The translations under genes were made by a program, and so were the position numbers. A stretch of 64,000 nucleotides of DNA. Origin: Bacillus rhizoplanae. Its GTDB lineage: Bacteria > Bacillota > Bacilli > Bacillales > Bacillaceae_G. A model generated the notes under the pieces. The model was given only the letters and a program-made list of their open reading frames with translations. It was not told the origin of the DNA and did not search any database. The stretch lies in contig NZ_CAKJTI010000008.1 in NCBI RefSeq assembly GCF_917563915.1, positions 1-64,000 of the forward strand. Reading direction: 5' to 3'. Positions 1,100 through 30,987 of the stretch are shown here, piece after piece; the stretch's first letter is position 1; each line of letters begins with the position of its first letter.

Positions 1100-1714
1100 T
1101 TGGGCAATAATCAAGATGAACCAAGATGCTTTCCTTTCCCTTGTGCATTTCCTGTACCAGAACCGACGGTACCAGCTAGTTCTAGCACTATAATTCCATT
1201 TTCATCTGGCACAACACCTATTACACCAGCGACTGCGCTTCCGCCTGCTCTTGGGCTTGTAAGTCTCATTGGATTTGGATCAGCTATTCCGACTGTCACT
1301 TTATTAGGAACGTCTCCTAACACTTTTACTCTTAGCGGAGCAACAGAAGCATTTACGATGCCTCGTAATGGCACAATTAAGTCTGTATGGGCAAACTTTA
1401 CTGCTACAGGTATTAATGTAACTCTCCCTCTTGATGGTAGCATTACCGTTCGAGCATCATTATATATTAATACTGTAGCTAACAATAAAACGAACACTTT
1501 TACTGAACTTACAAGTACTGTAGTAAATTTAAGTCCAAGCATTACATCCTTACTTGCATTCCCTGCAAATCTTGCTGGTTCTAATACTACAGTGAGTCAA
1601 CCCGTAAATGCTGGAGATCGTCTAGTCATGGTCTTTTCTATAATCGGTACTGGTGGTCTTACTGCTGTTGCTACTCTTACAGGATTGGCAAGTGCCGGAG
1701 TTGAAATTGTTTAG
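1100..1714 (+). CDS. Exosporium protein with BclB-type C-terminal domain
   Basis: 204 residues, TTG start with AAGGAGG about seven bases upstream. The short N-terminus is rich in Cys, Phe and Pro (CFPFPCAFPVPEP), as in proteins targeted to the exosporium basal layer. The rest, from about residue 30, is a hydrophobic beta-rich domain (IIPFSSG, LIGFGSA, MPRNGTI, GDRLVMVFS) that matches the C-terminal domain of BclB exosporium glycoproteins. Unlike BclB there is no Gly-X-Y collagen segment, so it is the head domain alone. It has its own sigma-K promoter and a terminator at 1787, and so is monocistronic. It is probably a structural part of the spore surface. Confidence 0.8.
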   Translation: MGNNQDEPRCFPFPCAFPVPEPTVPASSSTIIPFSSGTTPITPATALPPALGLVSLIGFGSAIPTVTLLGTSPNTFTLSGATEAFTMPRNGTIKSVWANFTATGINVTLPLDGSITVRASLYINTVANNKTNTFTELTSTVVNLSPSITSLLAFPANLAGSNTTVSQPVNAGDRLVMVFSIIGTGGLTAVATLTGLASAGVEIV

Positions 1715-3378: not shown

Positions 3379-4035
3379 TTATAGATATTTATCTCCTTTT
3401 TCTCTAGATTTTATTTTTGTTGCCGGTACGCCAAACGCAATGACGTAGGAGCCGATATCTTTTACAACTGTAGCACCAGCACCGATTACGGTATGCTCCC
3501 CTATCGTAATAGAATGGATTACATTTGCTCCTAAAGAGATGACAGAATAATTCCCAATCTTAACATTCCCTCCAAGAGTAGCACCTGGTGCGATAGTCGC
3601 ATAATTATCAATTACACAATCATGATCAACACTGGACTTTGTATTAACAATGCAGTGTTCTCCTATACGCACATTACTATTAATCACAGCTCCTCCCGCT
3701 ACTACCGTTCCTGCTCGAATGATTACATCTTCGCTAATAATCGCAGATGGATGAATAGCACAAACAAAAAGAAAATCTGGAATAATAGTCTTTACTTTCT
3801 CCACTATCTTTCTTCTTATCCAATTATCTCCTACAGCTACAATTCCCCCATGGATATTATCTTTAATAGATAATAGGCTAGATTCATCCCCTATTACTTC
3901 GTAACCATAAACCATTTCATTTTGTGAACGAAAGCCGTCAACTATTCCATAAATATCATATTCTCCAGCTCGTCGAATTACATCAATAACAACCTTGGCA
4001 TGGCCTCCTGAACCAAAAACAACAATTTTTTTCAC
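3379..4035 (-). CDS. NeuD/PglD-family sugar acetyltransferase, candidate GDP-perosamine N-acetyltransferase
   Basis: 218 residues from a GTG at 4035, chosen because AAGGAAGTG lies just upstream; an in-frame ATG at 4059 is less well placed. The N-terminal Rossmann-like half has FGSGGHAKVV. The C-terminal half is a left-handed beta-helix made of hexapeptide repeats (IRAGTVVAGGAVIN, IGEHCIVN, IGNYSVIS, IGAGATVV). SSVDHDC holds the His expected to be catalytic in PglD-like enzymes. The family transfers acetyl from acetyl-CoA to amino sugars or sialic acid. As the window also encodes gmd and a perosamine-synthase-like enzyme, and the known perosamine acetyltransferase PerB belongs to this fold, the 4-amino group of GDP-perosamine is a plausible target (inference). 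Confidence 0.75.
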   Translation of the reverse strand: MKKIVVFGSGGHAKVVIDVIRRAGEYDIYGIVDGFRSQNEMVYGYEVIGDESSLLSIKDNIHGGIVAVGDNWIRRKIVEKVKTIIPDFLFVCAIHPSAIISEDVIIRAGTVVAGGAVINSNVRIGEHCIVNTKSSVDHDCVIDNYATIAPGATLGGNVKIGNYSVISLGANVIHSITIGEHTVIGAGATVVKDIGSYVIAFGVPATKIKSREKGDKYL

Positions 4036-4320
4036 ACTCTTCACTTCCTTGTATATCACTAAAGACGATTAACATTTTTCATAGTTGAATTTACATTTAT
4101 ATACAAGAAAATTACTTATAATAATTATTTATGATTTTAGTTTCTTTATTATGAACATTTAACAATAGAAATGAGCTGATTACTCCCGTATCTTCACACA
4201 GGCAATATTTACAGCATATGATAAATCTAACGTACCTTTATTATCCCCTCGAATGATTTACACTCATATCTACATGTGCTAATACAATTTTTATTGGCAC
4301 AGTAGAGAGGAGAAAAGATA

Positions 4321-6971: not shown

Positions 6972-7087
6972 CATTTTCTATAAAAATCCGATGGTTGTAA
7001 GAAGAAAAAGATATTGTACAACTGCGACATCAAAATTGAGAGTAAGGAAAGGAATTAACAATTTTATAAAAAGAAAAACTGCTGTTG

Positions 7088-8362
7088 CTATTTAAGAAAT
7101 CTTTTAAAATAGAAACTAATTGGTTCCCCCTTTTCAAACCCCTCCATCTCAGCTCTTGAAACGTATATGCAATCATTTATAAGGTTAAGCTTTTTCAATA
7201 TTTTTTTATCAATAAGATGAAGCTTACAATTCATCGTAATTGAGCATTGACCATTATATATAAATACTTTATTTTCTGGCAAGCAAGTATTATGCGATAA
7301 AATAGGATAGATTGGTAATCCATGAGGTATATGATCTAGTAAAGTTGAGTTTATTTTAATTACTTCATAAAAAGAAAATTTGAATTTACGAAAAGCTAAA
7401 TTATTCATTATTGGGCGTTTTGTATTATTTTCGAGGTAGAAAAATTTATTTTGTTCATTTTGAACAATACGTAAGTTGGGAACAATAGTTGGATCATCAA
7501 TAGGAGGACCTTCTACGTATCTATATAAAAAAGGATCAGGTATCATAACTACCTTCTTTAAGTTATACTTAAAATACGTAAACATCTCATTTGTAATGAG
7601 CCTTCTTTGCTGCTGGTCAATTAAAAAAACCTGTGGATTCCCCCCTTTTACCAAAGTCCCATTCGGAATTTTTATAGGTAAATTATTATATAGGTTTTGA
7701 AAAGAGTAAGGTGTTTTGTATGTTATATCAAGCACTATATCGATAGGATGGAATGGCTGAAAAGTGTTTAATCTCTCCCAGAAAGCCGCATCTCCATTAT
7801 ACCAATGAGCAGGACTTTCATCCCAATATTCCCCATACTTCTCCCGAACTTTCTCTAAAATTGCACGCGTATGCATAACTGAACAGTGATCAACAACGTT
7901 AGCTGCTTGATATAGTACACGCTGAGCTCTACTTACTCTTTCGGAAAGCAGCTTCAATTGGCTATTTACAAATTTCACTTGTTGAGAAGAATAAATAATA
8001 TCTATCTTAGCATTTATGTTAAAAAAAGATACCATTTCTTCTAATCTCTTCGGAACATAGACAGTGTCGTCTGTTAAATAAGAAATGTATGTTCCTTTTG
8101 TTAACGGAATAGCTTTATTGATAAGTACAGCATACCTCGTCTTTTTATAACGTTCCTCATCCTCTATGAAGCTATTTATATAAGTTATCCTTGGGTCATC
8201 CAAATATTGTTTAATAACATTTACTGTTTCTTCATTCGAATGATCATCCATGATAAACAGTTCCCATTCATCTAAAGTTTGCCTTAACACACTTTCAATC
8301 GCTTTTCCCACTAATGCAGGTTTATTATAACTAGTAAGAATGATTGATACTTTTGGATTCAA
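7088..8362 (-). CDS. CgeD-like family 2 glycosyltransferase with C-terminal repeats
   Basis: 424 residues, TTG start with GAGGGGGG upstream. The GT-A domain occupies about residues 1-225: VSIILTSYNKPALVGKAIES, MDDHS, YLTDDTVYVP (the DxD-like site) and WYNGDAAFWERL. The size and layout match B. subtilis CgeD, a spore-maturation protein. Residues about 228-424 contain three diverged repeats of roughly 50 residues, clearest in KGGNPQVFLIDQQQRRLI and FFYLENNTKRPIMNN, each ending in a hydrophobic strand and a PxG-like turn. Such repeats occur in bacterial surface proteins and may bind the glycan or the coat. A sigma-K -10 (CATAAATTA) lies 37 bases before the start. Confidence 0.75.
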   Translation of the reverse strand: MNPKVSIILTSYNKPALVGKAIESVLRQTLDEWELFIMDDHSNEETVNVIKQYLDDPRITYINSFIEDEERYKKTRYAVLINKAIPLTKGTYISYLTDDTVYVPKRLEEMVSFFNINAKIDIIYSSQQVKFVNSQLKLLSERVSRAQRVLYQAANVVDHCSVMHTRAILEKVREKYGEYWDESPAHWYNGDAAFWERLNTFQPFHPIDIVLDITYKTPYSFQNLYNNLPIKIPNGTLVKGGNPQVFLIDQQQRRLITNEMFTYFKYNLKKVVMIPDPFLYRYVEGPPIDDPTIVPNLRIVQNEQNKFFYLENNTKRPIMNNLAFRKFKFSFYEVIKINSTLLDHIPHGLPIYPILSHNTCLPENKVFIYNGQCSITMNCKLHLIDKKILKKLNLINDCIYVSRAEMEGFEKGEPISFYFKRFLK

Positions 8363-8378
8363 AAATCATCCCCCCTCT

Positions 8379-8407
8379 ACAGTCAATCATTTTACTCATA
8401 ATTTATG
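8379..8407. promoter_or_regulatory. Divergent overlapping sigma-K promoters
   Basis: Plus strand: AC at 8379, 16 bases, CATAATTTA at 8397-8405, an exact sigma-K match reading towards the sulfate operon. Minus strand: CATAAATTA at 8399-8407, also an exact -10, reading into the CgeD-like gene, although no AC is found at the right distance. The two -10 boxes share the 11-bp near-palindrome CATAATTTATG, so the polymerases could compete. The plus-strand leader to the permease start would be about 335 bases and holds a 10-bp hairpin (ATGTTTTATA type) near 8537-8569. Confidence 0.65.
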
Positions 8408-8747
8408 AATGCATTCACTCAATCAAAATATCCGAAAAGACATTTAATACGAAATTATTTTCTACAAATCTAGCTTACAAATGTATAAGTTCACAAAAAC
8501 AGTGTCAATTCACTAAAAATAACATATAAAGGTAATGAATGTTTTATATAGTGGAATTGATAAAACATTGGGATATAGTTACGCATTTTTCATGTACGCA
8601 CTCTATAGCGAAAGTAAGAGTACAATAAAGTAGTAAGGCACTACCCTAAGCTACTCTCCTTTAGATGATTTAACCAAACTGTTATTGTTATATCTTTTAC
8701 ACGCTAAATGTTCCTCAATGAAAACAACTTATAAATAGGTGAATCAT

Positions 8748-10541
8748 ATGACCATTCACGGTATAATTGCACTCCTTATTATTTTTATTACATTCATAGT
8801 TTTGATGTGCGAAAAATTTCCAGCTGATATCGTTATGTTCAGCGGACTAGTTTCTTTAATGATGTTTGGAGTTTTAGCTCCTTCTGAAGCTTTAGATGGG
8901 TTCTCAAATGAAGGAACATTAACAATTGGAGCCTTATTAATTATAGCTTCTGCCGTTAACAGTAACAATTTCATCAAACAAATTCCAAGGTTTATAATCG
9001 GTCATGAGAGAAGTCATAAAAAAGCAATTCTTAAACTAATGATGCCTGTAGCTAGTCTCTCCGCATTTATTAACAATACACCGATCATAGTAATTCTCAC
9101 ACCTATAATAAAAAATTGGGCGCAAAAAATCGGCCTGGCTCCTTCTAAACTGTTAATTCCCTTAGCATATGCAGCTAGTATGGGTGGGATGTGTACGTTG
9201 CTCGGTACATCTACAAATATTGTTGTAAACTCATTACTAAAAAAACAAGGTAATCATGGACTTTCTATGTTCGAATTAGGAATCATCGGTATCCCATGTA
9301 CTATAATCGGTATTCTATTCATGGTATTTATAGGAAGCAAACTCCTTCCTGAATACAAAAAAGGAAGCGAAATAGATGAAGAGAATAAAAGTGCATTTTT
9401 AGCAGAAGTTCAAGTTGAATCAAATTGCCCACTTATAGGAAAAACAATAAAACAAGCGAACTTACGTAACCTTGCAGGCTTATATTTAATTGGAGTTATG
9501 AGAAACGAAGACATAATACTCCCAATTTCTAGCGATTATATACTAAATAAAAATGACTGCTTGTTATTTACAGGAGACATTTCTACTATTTCCAACTTGG
9601 AAAAAATTGAGGGTTTAACATTACACCTCAGTTCTAGAATAAGTCTCGAAAACTCCTCCAATAATGACATCACTCTTTCAGAAATAGTAATATCCAAACA
9701 ATCTTGTTTATCCAACCGAACTGCTAAAGAAATTCAGTTTCGCTCAAAATACAACGCTGTTGTAATTGCTGTTTTTCGGAACGGTAAAAGAATTCTCTCT
9801 AAAATAGGGTCTATTCGCTTAAAAACAGGAGATATTTTATATATTTTATCAGAAAATAATTTTTTCATAGAGAACCAATACTCTAATGATTTTTACTTTC
9901 TTTCCCATGAAACTGGTTCCTTTAAAAATCCTTCTAGAAAACAAAAGATGACCTCCTTTATTCCTCTGCTTATCTTCCTTCTCATGATATTATGTGCAAG
10001 TATAGGGGTTCTACCGATTTTAACTTCTTCTTTTTTAAGTGTTATCTTGTTATTCATTACAAAGTCCATTTCAGTACAAGAAGCAAGAAAGTATTTAGAT
10101 TTACGCTTACTTATCATGATTGGATCATCTCTTGGAATGGCAAGCGCTTTGGAGAAAACAGGAGTCGCTGATTACCTTGCTAACACAATCGCAGGGGAAA
10201 CCGCAACATTTAGTCCAACAGCATTACTTGCTATCATTTATTTACTTACATGGATTAGTACCGAATTTTTATCAAATACGGCGGCGGCGGCCTTCATTTT
10301 CCCTATTGCTTATTCCATTGCTACACAACTATCTTTAAATCCCGAACCTTTTATTATAGCTATTACGATTGCTGCCTCTGCTAGTTTCGCAACACCTACA
10401 GGATATCAAGCAAATTTAATCGTTTATCAAGCAGGTGGCTATAAATTTGTAGATTTTCTTAAAATAGGTCTTCCGCTTGGTTTTCTTTTCATGATTATTT
10501 CTGTCCTACTTATCCCATACTTTTGGCCATTTTATACGTAA
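8748..10541 (+). CDS. SLC13/DASS-type anion permease with TrkA-C domains, probable sulfate uptake
   Basis: 597 residues. ATG at 8748 is chosen because TAGGTG lies six bases upstream. About six membrane helices form each half. The first half carries NNTPIIVILTP and LLGTSTNIVVNS, the second STEFLSNTAAAAF and ASASFATPTGYQANL, the inverted-repeat hairpin motifs of DASS/SLC13 carriers. Between them, about residues 215-395, lie two soluble TrkA-C (RCK_C) domains, common in bacterial sulfate carriers of this group. It is followed 89 bases later by APS kinase and then ATP sulfurylase, so inorganic sulfate is the likely substrate (inference from context). Confidence 0.85.
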   Translation: MTIHGIIALLIIFITFIVLMCEKFPADIVMFSGLVSLMMFGVLAPSEALDGFSNEGTLTIGALLIIASAVNSNNFIKQIPRFIIGHERSHKKAILKLMMPVASLSAFINNTPIIVILTPIIKNWAQKIGLAPSKLLIPLAYAASMGGMCTLLGTSTNIVVNSLLKKQGNHGLSMFELGIIGIPCTIIGILFMVFIGSKLLPEYKKGSEIDEENKSAFLAEVQVESNCPLIGKTIKQANLRNLAGLYLIGVMRNEDIILPISSDYILNKNDCLLFTGDISTISNLEKIEGLTLHLSSRISLENSSNNDITLSEIVISKQSCLSNRTAKEIQFRSKYNAVVIAVFRNGKRILSKIGSIRLKTGDILYILSENNFFIENQYSNDFYFLSHETGSFKNPSRKQKMTSFIPLLIFLLMILCASIGVLPILTSSFLSVILLFITKSISVQEARKYLDLRLLIMIGSSLGMASALEKTGVADYLANTIAGETATFSPTALLAIIYLLTWISTEFLSNTAAAAFIFPIAYSIATQLSLNPEPFIIAITIAASASFATPTGYQANLIVYQAGGYKFVDFLKIGLPLGFLFMIISVLLIPYFWPFYT

Positions 10542-10630
10542 ATAAAGCAAACACAAACTAACCTTGTATTGAAAAAGACGTTCTTGATTACTAAGCCATT
10601 TTTTACTTTATATGAAAGGAGAAATTTTTT

Positions 10631-11236
10631 TTGGAAAAACAAACAAATATATATTATCATCACTTTTCAATTACAAAAAAGGATCGACAAAATTTGCATA
10701 AACATAAAAGCTGCATTGTTTGGTTTACAGGTTTATCAGGATCTGGAAAATCCACAATTGCTAATATTGTTGAAAACAAGCTACATCAATTAGGGATCTC
10801 CACTTATATTCTTGATGGAGATAATCTTCGAAAGGGATTAAATCAAGATCTTAGTTTTTCAGTAGCAGATCGTAAAGAGAATATCCGCCGCGTAGGTGAG
10901 GTGTCAAAATTGTTTGTAGACTGCGGAGTTATTGTGTTGGCAACATTCATTTCACCGTACCGCAGCGATCGTGAAGCCGTTAGAAATAATGTACACCCTG
11001 ACGAGTTTATTGAAGTTTATATCGACTGCTCTCTAGAAAATTGCGAAAACAGAGATCCAAAAGGTTTATATAAAAAAGCTAGAAATGGAGAGATTATCGA
11101 ATTTACCGGAATTTCCTCCCCTTATGAAAAACCACTTAATCCAGAAATTACTCTTGATTCTAATCATTGTTCAGCTGAAGCATGTGCTATACAAGTCATA
11201 GATTTTCTCAAAAAACATCACTACTTATCAATTTAA
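10631..11236 (+). CDS. cysC: Adenylylsulfate (APS) kinase
   Basis: 201 residues, TTG start with AAAGGAG ten bases upstream. The P-loop GLSGSGKS at 34-41, DGDNLR, the RRVGEV segment and FISPYRSDR are all characteristic of CysC, which phosphorylates APS to PAPS, the universal sulfuryl donor. Cytoplasmic. The gene sits eight bases before sat and follows the anion permease. No CysH, CysI or CysJ gene is present, so PAPS made here is probably meant for sulfotransferases such as the one at 17355. Confidence 0.93.
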
Positions 11237-11244
11237 GGAGGATT

Positions 11245-12429
11245 ATGATGGACTGTCCAACAGACAAAATTTTACCTCATGGAGGTATACTCATTAACCG
11301 TGAATTACAAGAAGCGGAGCGTGAAGAATATTTAAAAAAGGTAAACGAACTTCCTTCTCTAACTATCTCTGCTTGGAGTATTTCTGACATTGAACTAATC
11401 GCAAACGGTGGCTTTAGTCCGCTCATCGGTTTTATGGATAGAAATGATTATGAAAGCGTCTTAATGACTATGCATTTAAAAAATGGACTGCCATGGACGA
11501 TTCCTATCACTTTACCTATTACACAAGAGGAAGCAAAAGATTTACGTATTGGAACTGAAGTGATTCTTTACGGAGAAGATAAGATTCCTTATGCAGTTAT
11601 GCAAATAACCGATATGTTTCATTACGATAAACAAAGAGAAGCGCAGCTCGTATTTGGTACAACAGATATTGCTCATCCAGGTGTGAAAAAACTGGATGAA
11701 CAAGGCGATATATATATATCCGGATCTATCTCTCTATTAAATAAACCTTCACACAAAGATTTTCAGGACTTTTACATGACCCCAAAAGAAACAAGAAACA
11801 TGTTTACTGCTTTAGGATGGAAAACCATTGTAGGATTTCAAACCCGCAATCCTGTGCATCGTGCACATGAATACCTACAAAAAACAGCACTTGAAATCGT
11901 TGACGGATTGTTATTAAATCCACTTGTTGGAGAAACAAAAGAAGATGACATCCCTGCGGATATTCGAATGGAAAGCTATAAAATATTACTAAAGAACTAT
12001 TATCCAGCTAACCGCACCCGCCTCGTTATCTATCCTGCCGCTATGCGTTACGCAGGTCCTCGTGAAGCTGTGATGCATGCGCTTGTACGAAAAAATTACG
12101 GTTGCACACACTTCATTGTCGGTCGCGATCATGCAGGAGTAGGAAATTATTACGGAACGTACGATGCCCAAAAAATCTTTCGTAATTTTGATCCCATTGC
12201 AATTGGAATTCACCCCCTATTTTTCGAACACAGTTTTTATTGTAAAAAGTGTATGAACATGGCTTCTGTCAAAACATGCCCACATTCTAATACCGATCGT
12301 GTTATTTTAAGTGGTACTCAAGTTAGAGAAATACTTCGCAGCGGACAAACTTTGCCGTCTGAGTTTACTCGTCCTGAAGTGGCGGAGGTGTTGATGAAAG
12401 GAATGAAGCGAAGCAATGCAAAAGACTGA
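11245..12429 (+). CDS. sat: Sulfate adenylyltransferase (ATP sulfurylase)
   Basis: 394 residues from ATG at 11245 (AAGGAGG six bases upstream; a further upstream in-frame ATG inside cysC lacks a site). Homo-oligomeric type: [12 protein letters not shown] at 199-210 with the catalytic HxxH, and GRDHAGVG near 293-300. A Cys-rich CKKCMN...CPH segment near the C-terminus is usual in bacterial Sat. It forms APS from ATP and sulfate. The end overlaps the next gene by 14 bases, showing translational coupling with a glycosyltransferase rather than with reductive sulfur genes. Confidence 0.93.
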
Positions 12430-13543
12430 AGCAACGCCATTAAAAAAAGGTATTAATTTAGTAGGATATGCACGTGCCGAATTTGGACTAGGAGAATCTT
12501 GTCGCCTAGCAGCAAAGTCCATTCAAAGTACAAATATTCCATTTGGCATTATTAATTATTCGCTTCCACATGTAAAATCATTAGATTTCTCTTGGAAACA
12601 TAAAGAAATAACCGATCCTATCCACGATATTAATATTTTTCATATGAATCCAGATGTATTTCCAACCGCTCATAAGCAGCTTGGACATCAATTTTTTAAC
12701 GGTCGCTACAATATTGGTTATTGGCATTGGGAGCTTCCGGAGCTTCCTAGGGAATGGTATACCAGCTTCAAACTTATCGATGAAGTATGGGTTCCCTCAT
12801 CTTTTGTACTAGAAGCTGTATCAAAAAAAACAAACCTTCCTGTAATCCGTATTCCACATTGCATCCAAGTAGAATGCTCTGAAGGTATAAGTCGTGAATA
12901 CTTTAATTTACCGACAGATCGCTTTTTATTTCTTTCCATGTATGATCCTAGAAGTATACAACAACGCAAAAATCCAGTTGCGTCTATTCAAGCATTCCAA
13001 AAAGCGTTTTCTAAGGATGATCCTTCCGTTGGGCTTGTTTTAAAAATCAATAATTCAAATTATAATCTTGCAGAAGTGAAACAGATTCAGCATCTAATTC
13101 GAGATAATCGTAATATTTATCTCATTAACCAATCATTAAATCGAGGAGAAGTAAATGCCTTAATTCAATCGGTTGACTGTGTTGTCTCTTTACACCGTTC
13201 TGAAGGATTTGGACTTGTACTAGCAGAAGCAATGTATTTAGGAAAACCAGTAATTGGTACAAATTGGTCTGGTAATACTGATTTTATGAACGCAGATAAT
13301 TCTTGTCCTGTCAATTATACCCTTGTCCCAATAAAACGAAATTACGGTCCTTACAAACATTATCAAATATGGGCTGAGCCAGATATTGAGCATGCTGCTT
13401 ATTTTATGCGCCAACTTATCTCCAATCAAACACAGTGTAATCTTATCGCAATGAAAGGACAAGAAACCATAATGACCGATTTTTCACCAAATGTGATTGG
13501 AAACATGATTGAAAAACGATTGACACAATTAGGATTTATTTAG
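12416..13543 (+). CDS. GT4-family glycosyltransferase in the sulfate operon
   Basis: 375 residues. ATG at 12416 lies within the last codons of sat. GT-B fold: the N-terminal half starts [19 protein letters not shown] and has [11 protein letters not shown]; the C-terminal half has [25 protein letters not shown], the typical EX7E donor-binding region. It is probably cytoplasmic and adds a sugar to a growing surface glycan. The tight coupling with PAPS synthesis suggests that the product or the acceptor carries sulfate, which is inference. The operon ends at the terminator at 13570. Confidence 0.82.
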
Positions 13544-13569
13544 TGTATAAATCATCTATTCATGATTCT

Positions 13570-13615
13570 AGAGAGACGAAACAATAATTGTAAAATTGTT
13601 TCGCCTCTCTATTTT
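13570..13615 (+). terminator. Terminator of the sulfate operon
   Basis: GAGAGACGAAACAAT pairs with ATTGTTTCGCCTCTC (one bulge), loop about nine bases, followed by TATTTTAC. Confidence 0.8.
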
Positions 13616-13722
13616 ACTGAGTTCTTCCATTCTCCCTATCCTATTCATGTAATGGTGAAAATAAACGGTATTTCAGTAGCAGTCAAGGTATATGAAACAT
13701 ATGATTAAAGGAGGTAAAAGTT

Positions 13723-14725
<1,003 letters not shown>

Positions 14726-14808
14726 AATTTGATTTTATAACCTTTTTATATTACCTATCCCTCTTGACTTGTACTTTAACTTTATTTTTATGCAGGGAGG
14801 ACATTTTG

Positions 14809-15930
14809 ATGACAAAATTTTATCCTATCGCTAGTCCTATATTAAATGGAAATGAAAAACAATATGTCATAGACTGCCTCGATTCAAATTGGATATCTTC
14901 AAACGGTTCATATATTCAAAAGTTTGAAGAACAATTTGCACAGTACTGCGGTGTAAAACATGCTATTTCTTGTAATAACGGAACAACCGCTTTACATCTT
15001 ACTCTGTTAGCATATGGGATTAAAGAAGGCGATGAAGTGATTATTCCGACTTTTACATTCGTTGCAACAGCAAATGCAGTCGTCTATTGTGGAGGAACGC
15101 CTGTATTTATTGATTCCGATTCAGCAACATGGAATATTGATCCTGCGAAAATAGAAGAAAAAATCACACCGCATACAAAAGGGATTATTCCCGTTCACAT
15201 CTATGGTCATCCAGCTGATATGGACCCTATTAAAGAATTGGCAAGGAAATATAATTTATTTGTTATAGAAGATGCTGCTCAGGCTGTAGGAGCGCAATAC
15301 AAAGGAAAAATGACAGGAGCAATTGGTGACTGTGCTACTTTTAGTTTGTTTGGCAATAAAATTATTACAACCGGTGAAGGGGGAATGATTACTACTAACG
15401 ATGACCACATAGCTGAAAAGATTCGAATTCTAAAGTCACAAGGAATGGATCTAAACCGCAAATATTGGTTTCCAGTTATCGGATATAACTATCGTATGAC
15501 CAACATTCAGGCAGCAATCGGCTGCGCACAACTCGAGAACATTAATTGGCATATTCAGCAACGAATCAGAATCGCTAATCAATATATACAAAATTTAAAA
15601 GATGATCATCGTCTCATATTACCAATCGAAAAAGATTGGGCTAAAAATGTATACTGGATGTTCAGCATTGTATGTAAAGATTTTACTGAAAACGAACGAA
15701 ATTTGTTAATGGATCGCTTAAAAGATAAAGGAATCGAAACTAGACCTTTTTTCTATCCTATGCATGCATTGCCTCCTTACCAAAATTTACAAGACCCATT
15801 AGAATTCCCTATAATAAACCGCATTTCTGCTCAGGGGATTAATGTTCCAAGTTACGGAAGCTTGACCGATGATGATATTCGATATATTAGCTTAAAAATA
15901 ACAGAAACATTAAACGAGATAAATACTTAG
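14809..15930 (+). CDS. per: DegT/DnrJ/EryC1 aminotransferase, probable GDP-perosamine synthase
   Basis: 373 residues from ATG at 14809 (AGGGAGG nine bases upstream; the in-frame ATG at 14722 overlaps gmd but would add a hydrophobic 29-residue leader unlike the family). The N-terminus runs SPILNGNEKQYV. CNNGTTALHL, VIEDAAQAVGA and SLFGNKIITTGEGGM, with the PLP lysine at 184, mark a sugar aminotransferase of the DegT family. Following gmd, the likely reaction is glutamate-dependent amination of GDP-4-keto-6-deoxymannose to GDP-perosamine. The symbol is given on the basis of context; a related 4-aminosugar product cannot be excluded. Confidence 0.83.
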   Translation: MTKFYPIASPILNGNEKQYVIDCLDSNWISSNGSYIQKFEEQFAQYCGVKHAISCNNGTTALHLTLLAYGIKEGDEVIIPTFTFVATANAVVYCGGTPVFIDSDSATWNIDPAKIEEKITPHTKGIIPVHIYGHPADMDPIKELARKYNLFVIEDAAQAVGAQYKGKMTGAIGDCATFSLFGNKIITTGEGGMITTNDDHIAEKIRILKSQGMDLNRKYWFPVIGYNYRMTNIQAAIGCAQLENINWHIQQRIRIANQYIQNLKDDHRLILPIEKDWAKNVYWMFSIVCKDFTENERNLLMDRLKDKGIETRPFFYPMHALPPYQNLQDPLEFPIINRISAQGINVPSYGSLTDDDIRYISLKITETLNEINT

Positions 15931-16451
15931 GAAATGATATCAAGCTTTTATCTCCCAATTGAAGAACGAAACACCACTCACTAGCTTCAGCAAAATAACA
16001 AAATTCACCTTACTACAAATATAATTAACTTCCCCATTTCAACCCTTATTCTCCGTATTAGACAATAAAACAAGCTTGGCCGAGAGGTGATTATAACACA
16101 ACTCCTCTCAAAAAATATGTAGCGATAGTAAAGTCTAGTATCATTAAACATCGAAAGTATTAATTATGTATGGACACATCTCTTCTGCTATGCATTGTAC
16201 CGAATTCACTGTGATGTGTCCTTAGAGCTATAAACACTTTAATTATAAGAAAATGGATATTGTACCTAAAGAGAATTGATATTTAAAATAGCTCGTTCAC
16301 CTTGCATTAAAGTAAGAAGACTTAGACTGTAGAAAGGGAACTAGCATGTACAATTCAAGTTAAGATCTTCCACTTCTCTTACTCAATGAAAACCCTACCC
16401 TTAAATTATTACTGTGTTTTGAATAGAGGTACCACTATAAAATCATTCTAT
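15931..16451. other. Non-coding stretch
   Basis: No plausible gene. Two inverted repeats are visible: GAGAGG/CCTCTC spanning 16081-16111, which may terminate the gmd operon, and GGACACATC/GATGTGTCC near 16171-16221. Confidence 0.5.
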
Positions 16452-17090
16452 CTAAGAAGTTAAAGTAATCCCATTAAATAACATTGTGCATGCATCTTTA
16501 TTGTGAATGTAATCCCTTACTGGATACATTTTAAATTGAACAACACAAGTATGCTCTAAACCCCAGTCAAGTTCTTTTATTTCTTCTGTATCTCCATCTA
16601 AAATAAGAAGAATCTGAAAGTTATGTTTAACCATACTTGATAAAGTTTTTTCAAGCTCAGCAACTTCTTCATACGTTCCACCTGAGCGGACAAAAAGAAT
16701 CCATTCACTTGTTTCCGTACAGTTTAAGAAACGTTGAATACGGCGATTGTATTTTTCTTTTATCTCCGTATATTGTGGGAATGAAGTTGGAGTATTAACA
16801 GTTGCTAAAAAATCATGTACAAAATCTATATTATACAAATTATCTCTAAATATTAAATTATGCCCACCTTCAGGCGTGTAACAAACAAAGGTAAGGTTTT
16901 GTAATTCTAAAAAATTAATAAATCTATTGTTTAATAATCGGTTTACATCTTTTAAAGAGGGGCTTCTCACCCAATCTAAAAATCCAGAAAACGGTCTTAA
17001 CTTAAATTGATTTAACCAAAAGCCTACATAACAATCTGCTCCCAAACTAAAAATTGCATGATAATTTCTTTTAATATCTGCTAACTTCAT
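16452..17090 (-). CDS. DUF1796-like protein (putative papain-like cysteine peptidase fold)
   Basis: 212 residues. ATG at 17090 is preferred to the GTG at 17102, which lies inside the AAAGGGG site. The N-terminus IFSLGADCYVGFWLNQFKLR, ending in SGFLDWV, matches the SLGxxC ... PFDW pattern of DUF1796, a family annotated as putative papain-like peptidases and often found in surface polysaccharide clusters. Cys24 region and downstream His residues could form a catalytic site, but this is not shown. It has an exact sigma-K promoter at 17115. Role unknown; it may modify or process glycan-linked components. Confidence 0.65.
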   Translation of the reverse strand: MKLADIKRNYHAIFSLGADCYVGFWLNQFKLRPFSGFLDWVRSPSLKDVNRLLNNRFINFLELQNLTFVCYTPEGGHNLIFRDNLYNIDFVHDFLATVNTPTSFPQYTEIKEKYNRRIQRFLNCTETSEWILFVRSGGTYEEVAELEKTLSSMVKHNFQILLILDGDTEEIKELDWGLEHTCVVQFKMYPVRDYIHNKDACTMLFNGITLTS

Positions 17091-17114
17091 TTCTGTATTC
17101 ACCCCTTTATTCTA

Positions 17115-17141
17115 TAGAATATGTTTTATATATGGACAAGT
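17115..17141 (-). promoter_or_regulatory. Sigma-K promoter for the DUF1796-like gene
   Basis: On the minus strand: AC (17141-17140), 16 bases, CATATTCTA (17123-17115). Exact match to the sigma-K pattern, 25 bases upstream of the chosen start codon. Confidence 0.8.
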
Positions 17142-17354
17142 TGCATTACAAGCTTAAAAATAGACTTTATATAAAAATAATATTCTATATATCCATTTTG
17201 ATATTTTAACGCATAAGCCATTACTATGCAGAATACAAAATGTTGTATTTTCATATCAACAACAGAAAAGACTGAAACAAAATAAATCCTGTTCCAGTCT
17301 TTTAAATATCCCCTAAAATATATCTGTTACAATTATTCAAATAAAAAACAATAA

Positions 17355-18101
17355 CTAATCATTAGTTTGAAATGCGCGCAATTCTCTAATTGAGGCAGCA
17401 TCTAAGGAAGCAATCTTTTTTTCTAACATTTCTTTAGCATAATTATATAATTGAAAATCTATTTCATTTTTCTCTACAATCTTATCAATAACTGTCTGCG
17501 GAATTTGTTCCCTTTGAGCTCTTTGTGCATTAACATTTAATTTTTGATATTTAACATTCTTCCAACCAAATTCTCTTTTCATAATATATAAAGATTCATC
17601 AAACAACTCCGTAATACCTACTACAGAAAAATAATTTTCTATATTCTCTTTTGCTATTTGTAAATCTGCAACATCACTACCTGTAATGAAACGAGATTGG
17701 AAGTTAATCGTATAATAATCGAAATCTGGATTATTTATATAATCATCAATTGTCCCTTCAAAAAATAATTCTTTATATTGATTTAGATTCTTATGTGCAA
17801 AATAAAACCATGAAAGGACTTGCTCAACTGGATTCCTTAACATCGTAATATAAGTACACGGTCTAGAAATATGGTGATGTACGCCAAACAAAAGGTGACC
17901 ACATAAAGTATCAGCTGTTGTTAACTTTTCTTTTAGTAACAACACACTTTGCTGATTCAACCCATACTGATCAACATCGTAGAGAATATTATCAGGGTAT
18001 TGCCTATAAATTACATCTGTTAATGTAGTTCCTCCCGCTTTTGGTATGTGAATATAAATCAACAAAGGTTTTTGTTTGCTATTGGATTGATTTTGCGTCA
18101 T
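17355..18101 (-). CDS. PAPS-dependent sulfotransferase family protein
   Basis: 248 residues, ATG start with AAAGGGG upstream. Two PAPS-binding elements are visible: the 5'-phosphosulfate loop IHIPKAGGTTL (residues 17-27) and the 3'-phosphate motif YITMLRNPVEQVLSWF (Arg89, Ser97). This is the carbohydrate/heparan-type Sulfotransfer_2-like family, which moves sulfate from PAPS to a sugar hydroxyl. No signal peptide, so it should act on a cytoplasmic acceptor, for instance a lipid-linked or nucleotide-linked glycan. PAPS can come from the permease-cysC-sat operon 5 kb away. The promoter at 18140 is sigma-K-like. Confidence 0.85.
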   Translation of the reverse strand: MTQNQSNSKQKPLLIYIHIPKAGGTTLTDVIYRQYPDNILYDVDQYGLNQQSVLLLKEKLTTADTLCGHLLFGVHHHISRPCTYITMLRNPVEQVLSWFYFAHKNLNQYKELFFEGTIDDYINNPDFDYYTINFQSRFITGSDVADLQIAKENIENYFSVVGITELFDESLYIMKREFGWKNVKYQKLNVNAQRAQREQIPQTVIDKIVEKNEIDFQLYNYAKEMLEKKIASLDAASIRELRAFQTND

Positions 18102-18139
18102 ACACTCGTACCCCTTTCCGTCTGTTATAGCTTATATTT

Positions 18140-18166
18140 CAGTATATGATCCATACTGTTTTCTGT
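18140..18166 (-). promoter_or_regulatory. Sigma-K-like promoter for the sulfotransferase gene
   Basis: Minus strand: AC (18166-18165), 16 bases, CATATACTG (18148-18140), which departs from CATANNNTA only in the last base. It is divergent to the promoter at 18228. Confidence 0.6.
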
Positions 18167-18227
18167 AACTGAGGATTCGTCCAAAATGCAATGTCTTTTT
18201 CTTCTCCAACAAGTTTTTTGCTCGCTC

Positions 18228-18255
18228 ACAAAATTGTCTGAACTTGCATACATTA
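18228..18255 (+). promoter_or_regulatory. Sigma-K promoter for the GT4 gene
   Basis: AC at 18228, 17 bases, CATACATTA at 18247-18255: exact match. The start codon at 18298 follows after 42 bases. Confidence 0.8.
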
Positions 18256-18297
18256 GATAGGAACATGTGGATCTTCAAATAAAGGTGGTACAAACCG

Positions 18298-19458
18298 ATG
18301 AGAATTCTAATTTGGACTCAAAACGTGTCCCCTGGCGGAGGAGCTAGGCTTTTGGCTAATCTTCTGCCAGCTATAGCCAAGCAAGACGATATCGAGTTAG
18401 TTCGATTAGTCATCTCTCCTAAGTCTAAATTTAAAGAAAGAATTGATGTAGCGAATCTATCAAATATTGAAATTATTTATTTTGATGAAAATATCAATTC
18501 ACAACAAGGGAAGAAATTTGTTCAGGACTGTCACGTTGTCTATTATTTTTGGCCTCATCTTCATGAATATGTCGATGTTAACAGGCCTAGTGTTTGCACA
18601 TTTCACGATGCTACGATTCTTGACTTTGTTCCTCCGTTTACGAGCGGATCACAAATAAAGAAATACTGGGAAGATTCCAAAAAGTGGTTAGAAAACTGTA
18701 CCACTGTAGTAGCTTCATCACATCATGTAAAAAGCCGCATCATCGCACACTTCGGGGGCTATTTACAAAGCACTGTCGTCATTCCTCATGCTATTTTGCC
18801 AACAGGATATTCTTCTGAACAAATTTCAGATTCGGACTTAGCAGCTCACTTGCCGGCTGAGTACTTTGTGTACCCTGCTAACACATCTCCTCATAAAAAT
18901 CACTACAATCTGATACTTGCATACTCCAAATTTACAAAACGAAAAGAATATCCGTTAGTTCTATTTGGATCTTTTATAGACTTGCTTCGAAATGAACCAC
19001 CATTTTGGCCGGAAATCCCATTTATTCCGACGCTTGTTTCCTTAATAAATCGAGTGGGACTACGCAGAGGTAAAGATATATATCCAATTGGATTTGTAAA
19101 TGATCAAGATGTCACACCTACTATTAAAAATGCTAAGGCACTCATTATGCCTAGTTTATCAGAAGGCGGAGGAAGCTATCCTGTAGAAGAAGCGCTGAGA
19201 TTAGGAGTACCGGTTCTTTGCTCTGATATTCCTGTTATGCGTGAACACTTGGCGCGCCATAGCACAAAAGTCGTTTGGTTTAACCCCGAATCGATCGATT
19301 CAATTGTGCAAGCTCTTGAAGAAATAACTGCAAATTACGATGAGTATAAAGCATCTGCTCTTCAAGGTATAAATGACCCTGCTGAATCATGGGAAGATAT
19401 TGCCAAAAAATATATACATGTAATGCGCCAAGCATATCTCAAGTATTACAATAAATAA
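18298..19458 (+). CDS. GT4-family glycosyltransferase
   Basis: 386 residues, ATG start with AAAGGTGG upstream. N-terminus MRILIWTQNVSPGGGARLL; C-terminal donor domain with YPANTSPHKNHYNLI, IMPSLSEGGGSYPVEEALRL and VLCSDIPVMREH, the GT4 signature. It most resembles mannosyl/rhamnosyltransferases of O-antigen-like pathways. It is divergent from the sulfotransferase gene, each with its own late mother-cell promoter, so the two are likely co-expressed and may act on the same glycan. Confidence 0.83.
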   Translation: MRILIWTQNVSPGGGARLLANLLPAIAKQDDIELVRLVISPKSKFKERIDVANLSNIEIIYFDENINSQQGKKFVQDCHVVYYFWPHLHEYVDVNRPSVCTFHDATILDFVPPFTSGSQIKKYWEDSKKWLENCTTVVASSHHVKSRIIAHFGGYLQSTVVIPHAILPTGYSSEQISDSDLAAHLPAEYFVYPANTSPHKNHYNLILAYSKFTKRKEYPLVLFGSFIDLLRNEPPFWPEIPFIPTLVSLINRVGLRRGKDIYPIGFVNDQDVTPTIKNAKALIMPSLSEGGGSYPVEEALRLGVPVLCSDIPVMREHLARHSTKVVWFNPESIDSIVQALEEITANYDEYKASALQGINDPAESWEDIAKKYIHVMRQAYLKYYNK

Positions 19459-19961: not shown

Positions 19962-21647
19962 ATGAGTCATCACGACCAAAATCAGCCTACCATTATCGAT
20001 ATGATAAGAAAAATCATGCAGATCTCTAACGAAGCATTTGTTCACGAGGTATATATACAAATTTTACACAGGAAACCCTTAGACGAAGAAGAGCAGTATT
20101 TTTCGAAAAAACTCACGCACAAACCCAAAATAGCAATTATTCAAGAAATTATGGTAAAGGAAGAAGCACAAGCACTATATACAAAAGCAATTCAAATAAA
20201 CGAAGCCAGATCCAATCAAGCAAAAACTATTTCCTATCTTATTCAGTCCTTTTATTGTTTCGATGATAAACAGTTTCTCCATTCATTATACGAACAATTA
20301 TTAAACCGCTCCCCAGATTCAATAGGCTTTCAAAACCACTTAAATGCTTTAGCTTCAGGATTTCCAAGAGTACAGTTAATGGAGCAATTTTTATTATCTG
20401 AAGAGTGTCGACAATTTTTAGAAACTCCCCTTTTACATCCCGAAATTCAAACAAATCAGAAGCCTTCACCAAAAATCGGTCTTTTTATCGGCTATTTAGG
20501 AAGAGTCGGCAAACATTTTGGCGGCGAAGGCATTGGACGATTTTCTATCCGACTGGCAGAAAGCTTACTGCATCACGATAAGAATGCAACCGTAACCGTC
20601 GCAATTGATGGACTAAACTATGTGGATATTAGTAAGTCCTTTAAGGAAGTTTCATTATCCTTTCCTGATAGATTCTCAACCAAAAGATTTGATAATGTAA
20701 AATCGGTCAATGCCACCATTCCTGTCGATGTTTGGATTGTTCCTTATGTAGGCATGGAGTTAGCGTTACAATTAGAGAAGCCAATTATTGTTTGTTTACA
20801 TGACTTAGTATATCTACATTTTAAAGAACTATATGATAAAGCGTATCCGAATTTCTGTGATAAACTCCATGTTATTGTTAGTAAATTAGTCACAAAAGCA
20901 TCAAAAGTCGTATTTAACTCGAACTTTGTAAGAGACCATGAGGGACTTAAGTTTATGAAGCTGCCTTCGGAAAAAATGCATGTAATTAGGTTAGCTGCCC
21001 CAGTCGAAGAATATAGCTCTGTTGGTTCATTAGATGAGAGTACCTTTAGAAAGAAATACAAATTAAATAATGACTATATTGTGTATCCTTCTGTGATTCG
21101 TCCGCATAAAAATCATGATCGGCTAATTGAAGCATTTTTGAAATTTAAGCAAACCTATATAGACACTGCCTCTAACCTTAGTCTGGCTTTAACTGATGAT
21201 TTCCAAAATGGACCAAAGAAGAAAGAAATTGCAACATTGCTTAATGATTGCGAAGATCCGCATATACGGAATAGTGTTGTATTTTTAGGCAGAATACCTA
21301 CAAGTGATGTTCCATTTCTATATAAACACGCAATAGGAACCATCGTTCCTACACTTTTTGAAGGAAGCTGTCCTTTTCAACTATTAGAATCTTTAATTAT
21401 GGATACTCCTGTAGCAGTTAGTAAGCTTGAAGTTGTTGAAGAAATTATAACGGATATCGAAAAATTCATCACATTTAATCCATATTCTGTAGATGAAATA
21501 ATACTTGCCATTCATCACCTTTGGCAACACAATAACACTTTCTTAACCCAACAACAAATAGCAATTGAGCATATCCTAAAGAGAACTTGGGCCAACGTTG
21601 CACAGGAATACTATACACTACTAACGGAAATTTTCATAAATAATTAA
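19962..21647 (+). CDS. Glycosyltransferase with N-terminal DUF4214-like repeats
   Basis: 561 residues, ATG start, AAAGGGGG nine bases upstream. Residues 1-165 hold two helical units of DUF4214 type (YIQILHRKPLDEEE and YEQLLNRSPDSIGFQNHL), a module found in glycosyltransferases and surface proteins. Residues about 170-560 are a GT4 domain: GGEGIGRFSIRLAES, VCLHDLVYLHF, YPSVIRPHKNHDRLIEA and PTLFEGSCPFQLLESL. No membrane segment. A terminator follows at 21725. It is probably another transferase for the spore-surface polysaccharide. Confidence 0.8.
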   Translation: MSHHDQNQPTIIDMIRKIMQISNEAFVHEVYIQILHRKPLDEEEQYFSKKLTHKPKIAIIQEIMVKEEAQALYTKAIQINEARSNQAKTISYLIQSFYCFDDKQFLHSLYEQLLNRSPDSIGFQNHLNALASGFPRVQLMEQFLLSEECRQFLETPLLHPEIQTNQKPSPKIGLFIGYLGRVGKHFGGEGIGRFSIRLAESLLHHDKNATVTVAIDGLNYVDISKSFKEVSLSFPDRFSTKRFDNVKSVNATIPVDVWIVPYVGMELALQLEKPIIVCLHDLVYLHFKELYDKAYPNFCDKLHVIVSKLVTKASKVVFNSNFVRDHEGLKFMKLPSEKMHVIRLAAPVEEYSSVGSLDESTFRKKYKLNNDYIVYPSVIRPHKNHDRLIEAFLKFKQTYIDTASNLSLALTDDFQNGPKKKEIATLLNDCEDPHIRNSVVFLGRIPTSDVPFLYKHAIGTIVPTLFEGSCPFQLLESLIMDTPVAVSKLEVVEEIITDIEKFITFNPYSVDEIILAIHHLWQHNNTFLTQQQIAIEHILKRTWANVAQEYYTLLTEIFINN

Positions 21648-22594: not shown

Positions 22595-23971
22595 ATGAAA
22601 CTTATTTTACTATCTGGAGGGTCTGGAAAACGCTTATGGCCATTATCAAACAACTCTAGATCTAAACAATTTTTAAAAATACTTCGTAACCAGTATGGTA
22701 TTCAGGAATCCATGATTCAAAGAATTGTGGGACAAGTTCAATCTATTGGTCTAACAAACTCTACTTATATAGCAACTTGCAAATCTCAAACAGATATTAT
22801 TCAAAATCAACTTAACAATAAACTTCCTCTTATCATCGAACCAGATCGACGAGATACCTTCCCTGCTATTGCCTTAGCATCAGTCTATCTCTATTCTGTT
22901 CTAAATGTTGATGTAAACGAGACTATTTGTATCATGCCTGTTGATGCTTATGTAGAGAATTCTTTCTTTGAAGCCTTACTTAAACTTGACCAAGTATTGA
23001 CAGACTCAAATGCATCACTTGCACTTATGGGCGTTCGACCTTCACATCCTTCTGAACAATATGGTTATATTACAACTACCCCTAGTCACTCTTCATCAGT
23101 ACAAACACCTCCATATATGAAAGTTAACCAGTTTATTGAAAAACCAATGCAAAGCAAGGCAAAAGAGCTTATTAAACAAGAAGCGCTTTGGAATTGTGGC
23201 GTATTCACATTTAAATTAGGTTTTTTAATTCAATGCCTAACTTCTATGAAAATACCAGTTCAGTATGAAGAGCTTATCCAACAATATTCCACCCTTCCTC
23301 AAAAAAGCTTTGACTATGAAGTTGTAGAAAGATGCGATGATATTGTGGTAATGCCCTATGAAGGAGCATGGCGTGATTTAGGAACTTGGAGTACCCTTAC
23401 AGAGATTATGGATACACAAATTATTGGAAATGGAATTTTAAGTGAAAATACCCTTAATACTCATATCATTAATGAACTAAATCTTCCTCTTGTTGTAGCA
23501 AATATTTGCAATAGCATTATAATAGCGAGTCATGAAGGTATTTTGATAGCTGATAAGCAGGAAAGTGGAAAAATCAAAGAACTTATTAATCACGAGAATC
23601 CTAGACCTATGTATGAGGAAAAGCGTTGGGGAAACTACCGTGTTCTAGATTATGAAAAACTTAAAGATGGGAATGAAATTTTAACCAAAAGGCTTAAAAT
23701 TTTAGCGGGAAAAAATCTCAGTTATCAAATGCATTTTAAGCGCGAAGAAATTTGGACAATTATTGCAGGAGAAGGCGAACTTATTATAGACGAGAAATTC
23801 AAACTGATAAAACCTGGCGATGTTATTTACATTCCGGTTGGAACAATGCATGGAGCACGTGCTATTACTGACCTAGAATTTATTGAAGTTCAAATGGGAA
23901 GTAAGCTAGTAGAAGATGATATTATACGTACTCATATGACATGGGAAGAAATCGAACGAGATTTTAGATAA
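22595..23971 (+). CDS. manC: Mannose-1-phosphate guanylyltransferase, bifunctional type
   Basis: 458 residues, ATG start with a weak upstream site. The N-terminal nucleotidyltransferase has LLSGGSGKRLWPLSNNSRSK (the GGxGxRLWPLS signature), PVDAYVEN and FIEKP. The C-terminal cupin (about residues 345-455: LSYQMHFKREEIW, IPVGTMHGAR, EVQMGSKLVEDDIIR) is the type II phosphomannose isomerase domain. It makes GDP-mannose and possibly also mannose-6-P from fructose-6-P. It feeds gmd and per; phosphomannomutase is not in the window. Confidence 0.9.
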   Translation: MKLILLSGGSGKRLWPLSNNSRSKQFLKILRNQYGIQESMIQRIVGQVQSIGLTNSTYIATCKSQTDIIQNQLNNKLPLIIEPDRRDTFPAIALASVYLYSVLNVDVNETICIMPVDAYVENSFFEALLKLDQVLTDSNASLALMGVRPSHPSEQYGYITTTPSHSSSVQTPPYMKVNQFIEKPMQSKAKELIKQEALWNCGVFTFKLGFLIQCLTSMKIPVQYEELIQQYSTLPQKSFDYEVVERCDDIVVMPYEGAWRDLGTWSTLTEIMDTQIIGNGILSENTLNTHIINELNLPLVVANICNSIIIASHEGILIADKQESGKIKELINHENPRPMYEEKRWGNYRVLDYEKLKDGNEILTKRLKILAGKNLSYQMHFKREEIWTIIAGEGELIIDEKFKLIKPGDVIYIPVGTMHGARAITDLEFIEVQMGSKLVEDDIIRTHMTWEEIERDFR

Positions 23972-27810: not shown

Positions 27811-27838
27811 AATCACTAGTCCAAATTCACTAGTGATT
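27811..27838 (-). terminator. Terminator of the rhamnose operon
   Basis: AATCACTAGT pairs with ACTAGTGATT over eight bases; on the minus strand it is followed by TTTTTGTTTG. It overlaps the last codons of rfbD. Confidence 0.8.
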
Positions 27839-28684: not shown

Positions 28685-28695
28685 CTGCGAGCCCC

Positions 28696-29667: not shown

Positions 29668-29682
29668 AGACAACTCTCCTAC

Positions 29683-30228: not shown

Positions 30229-30236
30229 ATACTCAC

Positions 30237-30974: not shown

Positions 30975-30987
30975 CTCAATCACTCCC

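Follow-up and report, generated by a model that had tools for sequence, protein, structure and literature searches.

A predicted sulfate-activation and sulfotransferase gene set with sigma-K-type promoter sequences in a spore-surface glycan locus

In this study, we analyzed a 64-kb stretch of DNA (contig NZ_CAKJTI010000008.1, positions 1 to 64,000; the window) in which a putative sulfate uptake and activation operon and a gene for a sulfotransferase of the type that uses 3'-phosphoadenosine 5'-phosphosulfate (PAPS) lie together among spore-surface glycan genes. We consider it likely that these genes enable the mother cell to import and activate sulfate late in sporulation and to O-sulfate the glycans of the spore surface. 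The elements concerned are listed below, with E values or bit scores in parentheses (APS, adenosine 5'-phosphosulfate).

8379..8405, plus strand: exact match to the sigma-K-type promoter pattern, facing the operon; the permease gene starts 334 nt further on
8739..10541, plus strand: SLC13/CitMHS-type permease with TrkA_C domains (CitMHS, 7.5e-75; Na_sulph_symp, 6.5e-25; both over cut-off)
10631..11236, plus strand: CysC, APS kinase (TIGR00455, 268.8 bits, cut-off 138.7; PDB 3uie, 2.5e-63)
11248..12429, plus strand: Sat, ATP sulfurylase (TIGR00339, 458.4 bits, cut-off 322.95; PDB 8a8d, 5.7e-106)
12416..13543, plus strand: GT4-type glycosyltransferase GT4a, overlapping Sat (PF00534, 1e-12)
13569..13611, plus strand: rho-independent terminator closing the operon (hairpin of -19.2 kcal/mol, z score -5.6, T-rich tail)
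17355..18101, minus strand: PAPS-type carbohydrate sulfotransferase, soluble (PF06990, 1.9e-11; PF03567, 1.6e-9)
18140..18166, minus strand: sigma-K-like promoter sequence with one mismatch, ending 38 nt upstream of the sulfotransferase gene

The short gaps between the permease and CysC genes (89 nt) and between the CysC and Sat genes (11 nt), the 14-nt overlap of the Sat and GT4a genes, and the strong terminator hairpin make it credible that positions 8739 to 13543 form a single operon, as the original prediction had proposed. The solved enzymes align over most of the lengths of CysC and Sat, and the earlier assignment of CysC as the APS kinase that makes PAPS is upheld by both its family model and its structural match. 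The permease, whose match to the DASS family model TIGR00785 lies below the cut-off of that model, is presumed to be a sulfate importer; among the matches listed, its relatives (36-43%) adjoin sat and cysC at many Sat loci. Queries for PAPS reductase (confirmed with TIGR00434) and for nitrite/sulfite reductase-type proteins gave no match in the window at an E value of 1e-3, which agrees with the claim that such genes are absent near the operon, and no relative of the 3'-phosphoadenosine 5'-phosphate (PAP) phosphatase CysQ was found in the window. The arrangement typical of an assimilatory operon, in which PAPS or APS reductase and sulfite reductase genes stand beside sat or cysC, was seen neither in the window nor at the 49 sulfotransferase loci described below. 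The window instead holds the genes of a PAPS-supplied sulfation cluster, namely, PAPS genes and a sulfotransferase gene in one glycan locus together with a permease from an anion transporter family; a cysQ gene, missing here, is not essential to such a cluster.

The near end of the sulfotransferase gene is 3.8 kb, and its start 4.6 kb, away from the end of the operon, and its product scores over the cut-offs of two Pfam families (38.7 bits against 22 for PF03567 and 44 bits against 27 for PF06990), so that its identification by family as a PAPS-type enzyme near the operon stands. No strongly hydrophobic segment was found in the protein. A profile of four sulfotransferase sequences matched heparan sulfate 6-O- and 2-O-sulfotransferases (1.3e-11 and 6.8e-11, respectively); residues K21, R89, and S97 are invariant among four relatives, and in the profile match the K21 and R89/S97 stretches align with a solved heparan 2-O-sulfotransferase. 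We take these stretches to be the PAPS-binding positions. The 2-O-sulfotransferase match spans them, whereas the strong part of the 6-O-sulfotransferase match is confined to the C-terminal stretch. Heparan sulfate sulfotransferases are membrane enzymes of the animal Golgi apparatus; the window protein, in contrast, is bacterial and soluble. It also gave weak matches outside its family, to CmoA/YecO-type methyltransferases, which were set aside as chance, because neither the Pfam matches nor the profile search contained them. Used as a query, the window sulfotransferase returned no relative from the genome contigs, no match from phages, and no match at an E value of 1e-8 from 19 genomes of the related family (including G304, discussed below); a scan of viral contigs with GT4a and a megablast search of plasmids with positions 7000 to 19500 likewise gave no match.

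The promoter scans used the pattern AC-N16/17-CATANNNTA, which we take to be the sigma-K consensus. Promoter logos are described in PMC517825, in the part of that report that was accessible. Over the whole window, 10 exact sites were seen and 5.1 were expected; the site at 8379 is therefore weak when taken alone and could be due to chance. When the count was limited to sites within 400 nt of a gene start and facing it (intergenic DNA from 0.7 to 34.3 kb, 6,772 bp in total), four exact sites were found, upstream of the BclB-like, permease, DUF1796, and GT4b genes, against 0.33 expected, and 0 of 400 simulations gave as many. Chance as the source of the signal is rejected for the locus by this simulation and by the scrambled-motif and other sigma factor controls given below, but not for the 8379 site. 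The exact sigma-K promoter that was originally predicted to face the operon thus holds as a sequence and as one of the locus set, and not as a single site of much weight; the near-exact site predicted before the sulfotransferase gene is present. No riboswitch was detected in the window at Rfam gathering thresholds, the sole Rfam match being RsaE.

We next considered sulfotransferase loci in other Bacillales (labels beginning with L denote loci and those beginning with G denote genomes). PF03567 is present in 47 of 397 Bacillales genomes, in 45 of them over the cut-off; the exceptions are G095, whose locus (L203) is one of those with sat/cysC, and G202. From these 47 genomes, 49 neighborhoods, one or two per genome and about 20 kb in length (about 10 kb on each side; 8 were shorter), were compared with 40 control stretches at hand-chosen arbitrary coordinates in 40 genomes (39 of the 47, plus G304), the G+C content of which was slightly higher (0.394 versus 0.367). 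One or both of sat and cysC occurred at 20 of the 49 sulfotransferase loci (17 each) and at 0 of the 40 controls, with a stricter threshold at the former (E < 1e-25) than at the latter (E ≤ 1e-20). A lack of co-occurrence of the sulfotransferase with the operon across genomes would, according to the original prediction, have refuted it; in these other Bacillales, co-occurrence was observed. At E < 1e-25, 15 of the 49 loci had an SLC13-type or TauE permease and none had cysH; at E < 1e-5 there was still no cysH and no nitrite/sulfite reductase gene, although the same cysH query matches 79 of the loci used for the Sat tree. A CysQ-type PAP phosphatase was encoded at 7 of the 20 loci with sat/cysC. 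By genome counts tallied by hand, APS kinase was found in all 47 PF03567-bearing genomes versus 276 of the 350 others (Fisher test, 4e-5), and in at least two copies in 27 of the 47 versus 48 of the 350 (2e-10).

Exact sigma-K sites were 4.8 times denser at the sulfotransferase loci (57 in 102.6 kb of upstream DNA, or 0.555/kb, at 35 of 49 loci) than in the controls (11 in 95.3 kb, or 0.115/kb, in 10 of 40 stretches). A scrambled motif occurred 3 times at the former and 5 times in the latter, and sigma-E, sigma-A, and sigma-G patterns were not enriched (1, 1, and 4 versus 2, 5, and 5, respectively). The 28 stretches upstream of PAPS and permease genes at the sulfotransferase loci contained 4 exact sites (0.18 expected); 2 lay upstream of sulfotransferase genes (0.26 expected) and 12 upstream of glycosyltransferase and sugar genes (0.47 expected). 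Since the density was nearly the same at the 29 loci without sat/cysC (0.564/kb) and the 20 loci with them (0.540/kb), the sigma-K signal is a property of all the sulfotransferase loci taken together. A Sat query of the genome contigs gave at least 79 loci, and a set of 78 Sat loci, in which staphylococci and some glycan-type loci are mixed, had no exact site in 60 stretches upstream of PAPS and permease genes, a zero that, with 0.27 expected, does not in itself show absence; other genes in that set showed some excess (15 sites versus 4.7 expected). These sequence signals, together with the lack of a riboswitch in the window, favor the sporulation-type over the vegetative control that the prediction had weighed, and we infer that sigma-K drives genes of the locus.

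Other components of the window recur at these loci. Relatives of the GT2 glycosyltransferase encoded at 7088-8362 were found at 9 of the 49 sulfotransferase loci, and relatives of the DUF1796 papain-like protein were found at 3 of them; neither was found in the 40 controls. The DUF1796 protein also occurs twice on plasmid pBM600 (L255). Glycosyltransferase and nucleotide-sugar gene relatives are common at the sulfotransferase loci and rare in the controls, where only L225 had any (GT4a and manC). A count of collagen repeats as a spore-surface marker was uninformative, with 0 at the sulfotransferase loci and 0 in the controls. DUF1796 papain-like proteins were seen in the window (16452-17102), in L003, L159, L174, L180, and L251, and on pBM600 (L255).

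The genes around the operon and the sulfotransferase gene were as follows.

1100..1714, plus strand: BclB-related exosporium protein (TIGR03721, 106.9 bits, cut-off 93.15); an exact sigma-K site ends 46 nt upstream
3379..4059, minus strand: PglD/NeuD-like sugar N-acyltransferase (PF17836, 7.2e-19; Hexapep)
7088..8362, minus strand: GT2 glycosyltransferase, divergent from the operon (PF00535)
13751..14725, plus strand: GDP-mannose 4,6-dehydratase, gmd (TIGR01472, over cut-off)
14809..15930, plus strand: DegT-type sugar aminotransferase (PF01041, 1.6e-131)
16452..17102, minus strand: DUF1796 papain-like protein (PF08795, 1.7e-23); exact sigma-K site at 17115-17141
18298..19458, plus strand: GT4-type glycosyltransferase GT4b (family match); exact sigma-K site at 18228-18255
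19962..21647, plus strand: glycosyltransferase with DUF4214, GT4c (family match)
22595..23971, plus strand: mannose-1-phosphate guanylyltransferase type, ManC (PF00483, PF01050)
25978..26823, plus strand: collagen-like BclA-type protein (PF01391, 1.3e-13)
27830..30983, minus strand: rmlD, rmlB, rmlC, and rmlA for dTDP-rhamnose (TIGR01214, TIGR01181, and TIGR01221, over cut-off; RmlA by its solved relative 3hl3)

Because BclB-related, collagen-like, gmd, DegT, PglD-like, ManC, and rml genes surround the module, it can be placed in a spore-surface glycan locus, as the original prediction had stated of its neighbors. The combination of gmd and DegT suggests a GDP-perosamine-type sugar, and the PglD/NeuD-like acyltransferase is a possible partner of these two enzymes. 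Two small proteins (4719-5243 and 24094-24606) resemble BxpB/ExsF by eye; no model matched them. As to the source of the DNA, FabI from the window scored 480 bits against PDB entries 5ycr/2qio and 491 bits, with 85% identity, against a related genome. We take 5ycr/2qio to be FabI of B. anthracis/B. cereus, and the organism of the RmlA entry 3hl3 is likewise assumed. Since FabI scores no better against 5ycr/2qio, an outlying lineage is indicated and not B. cereus proper; judging from FabI and RmlA, the window is related to the B. cereus lineage but diverged from it. Elsewhere in the window we observed the RsaE/RoxS small RNA (41987-42107, minus strand; Rfam RF01820, 92.7 bits), an IS605 OrfB/TnpB-type protein (49194-50654, minus strand; PF01385, 3.4e-16; PF07282, 2.6e-10), and an open frame (5-421, plus strand) of repeated units of about 15 residues that is probably a DNA repeat and less likely a gene.

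A positional counterpart of the module is found in G304, the only 1 of the 19 related-family genomes with PF03567 or PF13469. The fabI neighborhood of this genome shows synteny to that of the window (ftsW, prpE, nadK, and others) and, at distances of up to about 13 kb from fabI, encodes Sat (56%), CysC (64%), TauE, PF03567 and PF13469 sulfotransferases, and a glycosyltransferase; cysH is absent from this neighborhood, and a core operon of cysH-sat-cysC with a nitrite/sulfite reductase-type gene lies apart (L113). The 20-kb stretch of G304 that contains this sat and TauE (L110) has 6 exact sigma-K sites on either strand. A broken Sat copy, the best piece of which is 79% alike, is found near rml genes on another contig (L112, about 10273-11064), and a further partial PF13469 match is found on yet another contig. 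A third protein of the fabI region appeared sulfotransferase-like by eye, with no Pfam family match.

In a quick Sat tree of 115 rows, including the window (short and duplicate sequences among 121 hits were dropped, and context labels were our own), the window Sat falls into a set of four, all from glycan loci, with 99% support in the SH-like approximate likelihood ratio test (SH-aLRT); the other three are from Cytobacillus oceanisediminis (L005), Bacillus sp. ISL-34 (L082), and G282 (L172). At L082 and L172, TauE-cysC-sat stands behind exact sigma-K sites, with a sulfotransferase gene in the same glycan locus. The G304 Sat lies elsewhere in the tree, on a long branch. Because its Sat lineage, permease family, and sulfotransferases differ from those of the window, the G304 module is probably an independent assembly; different PAPS sets seem to have come to occupy one and the same chromosomal position, and gene content and the Sat tree together suggest that Bacillales modules were assembled more than once. 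At L200 (G181), the closest syntenic relative of the window, a row on one strand encodes GT4c (46%), the sulfotransferase (47%), DegT (58%), a PglD-like protein (39%) between degT and GT4a, GT4a (51%), ManC (30%), Gmd (77%), and GT2 (45%), so that GT4a, the operon partner of Sat in the window, neighbors a sulfotransferase elsewhere. In Neobacillus muris (L066), GT4a, gmd, DegT, and PglD-like genes adjoin sat-permease-cysC.

A sulfotransferase relative (38%) in Priestia megaterium QM B1551 is encoded on pBM600, a plasmid that is reported to carry essential exosporium components (PMC4674009, accessible part); the word sulfotransferase does not occur in the main text of that report. No sat or cysC gene was found in the 64 kb of pBM600 examined (of 99.7 kb). 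On P. megaterium plasmid p3 (L251), which belongs to the replicon cluster of pBM600, a broken sat copy (6348-7442) stands with cysC and TauE; on one side of the three is a GT2 gene, and on the other are two genes annotated as encoding spore coat proteins. An exact sigma-K site precedes this sat copy by about 230 nt, and a sulfotransferase gene is located 22 kb away. The broken sat copies in p3 and G304 suggest that local PAPS supply was lost while the sulfotransferase genes were kept.

Based on these data, we propose the following scheme. The permease would import sulfate into the mother cell, Sat and CysC would convert it to PAPS, and the sulfotransferase would transfer the sulfuryl group to a hydroxyl group on a glycan of the spore surface. 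The glycosyltransferases of the locus would build this glycan, which is probably derived from rhamnose and GDP-mannose and perhaps of the perosamine type. Exosporium assembly proceeds from the side of the mother cell; a cytosolic sulfotransferase supplied with PAPS could therefore decorate the glycan without export. The spore surface would thereby acquire sulfate esters, which carry negative charge. In this scheme, the transport of sulfate by the permease, the identity of the sulfated sugar, and the presence of sulfate on mature spores are predictions. The predicted late-sporulation sulfation of a spore polysaccharide by the mother cell is thus supported in comparative terms, by co-occurrence and by sigma-K site density. 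On balance, we also favor the broader view that spore-glycan sulfation is a widespread, unrecognized late-sporulation trait of Bacillales, with PF03567 in about one-eighth of the sampled genomes and many loci of the sigma-K type, and that PAPS modules were recruited independently several times, once partly broken on an exosporium-type plasmid, giving species-specific, heparan-like sulfated surface chemistry.

Several observations weigh against this scheme. The 334 nt between the operon-facing site and the permease start is rather far, 14 of the 49 loci lack exact sigma-K sites upstream of their genes, and sat and TauE of G304 have none even with one mismatch. A single-sequence fold prediction of the sulfotransferase reached a predicted local distance difference test (pLDDT) score of 36. 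No sat or cysC was found in the fetched stretch of 29 of the 49 loci, and the genome with L200 (G181) encodes its sole APS kinase on a different contig; local PAPS supply is therefore common and not needed, and a core CysC could serve. Furthermore, our view of the source genome is the 64-kb window, with any core cysH operon outside it, and the B. cereus group appears to be missing from the compared sets, in which the best FabI identities were 81% (299 genomes) and 85% (19 genomes).

In B. subtilis, yitBA-yisZ functions in sulfate activation, and YitB is a PAPS reductase. The operon might likewise be a second assimilation set that raises cysteine or sulfolactate late in sporulation, beside an unrelated sulfotransferase gene, and late-sporulation expression of yitCD and yitBA-yisZ, inferred to serve phosphosulfolactate, offers a precedent (PMC517825, accessible part). 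We regard this as quite improbable, however, since neither the window nor the 49 sulfotransferase loci encode a relative of PAPS or sulfite reductase, the Sat gene overlaps a glycosyltransferase gene, and the window Sat groups with those of glycan loci, apart from assimilatory ones; moreover, B. cereus and B. megaterium spores are described as being without sulfolactate and B. cereus as being without yitCD (PMC517825, accessible part).

An equally improbable explanation is that the target of the module is a capsule or exopolysaccharide of vegetative cells. Capsule clusters with PAPS genes and sulfotransferases do occur in marine Vibrio and Cobetia (accessible parts of PMC11641403 and PMC11766843), but the module considered here is flanked by BclB-related and collagen-like exosporium genes, sigma-K-type and not sigma-A-type sequences are enriched at such loci, and the P. 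megaterium relative lies on an exosporium plasmid. It is very unlikely that PAPS is made for the spore surface with a protein or small molecule, and no glycan, as acceptor: both the family search and the profile search point to carbohydrate sulfotransferases, and the sulfotransferase loci, unlike the controls, are rich in glycosyltransferase and nucleotide-sugar relatives, even though PF03567-type enzymes are diverse and their sequence cannot tell acceptor specificity.

Sulfation of spore-surface glycans, if it occurs as proposed, would matter because the surface of a spore determines how it adheres and spreads, how hosts and insects recognize it, and how it responds to decontamination; a sulfate ester is charged at nearly any pH and would alter the charge and binding of the spore. 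The analysis yields a gene set, a promoter signature, and, in the laboratory species P. megaterium, a sulfotransferase relative on a plasmid reported to be needed for the exosporium, and related sets occur in many other spore formers.

The proposed module is reminiscent of known systems, and the statements that follow are limited to the accessible parts of the reports cited. In open-access literature, which leaves most subscription journals outside, no sulfated spore glycan or spore-surface sulfotransferase was among the matches listed, and no paper was found that joins exosporium, sulfotransferase, and spore. The legionaminic acid crust pathway (sps) of B. subtilis (PMC7439481) and the rhamnose-anthrose tetrasaccharide of B. 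anthracis BclA (PMC6222408) concern spore-surface glycans, with sulfation unmentioned. The B. subtilis yitBA-yisZ and yitCD genes share sulfate activation and expression in the late mother-cell program; unlike the window, they are reported with no sulfotransferase or glycan gene named (PMC517825). Likewise, Vibrio sp. KMM 8419, the polysaccharide of which is reported to be sulfated, has second copies of PAPS genes and sulfotransferases, one near a rhamnose operon, and this pairing is termed a hallmark of sulfated polysaccharide synthesis; these, however, belong to a Gram-negative capsule and O-antigen, with no link to sporulation mentioned (PMC11641403). A further close parallel is the cluster of Cobetia marina KMM 1449, whose capsule is reported to be sulfated and which has PAPS genes, a sulfate permease, a sulfotransferase, glycosyltransferases, and GDP-mannose and dTDP-rhamnose genes; it differs in its CysND-type sulfurylase, the cysQ gene in its operon, its capsule export genes, and its capsular product (PMC11766843). 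The window has instead a Sat-type sulfurylase, sigma-K-type promoter sequences, and a spore-surface setting. The chemistry and the cluster logic are therefore known from marine capsules and their use in sporulation looks undescribed, so that our findings would carry this logic over from the capsules of marine bacteria to a developmental program.

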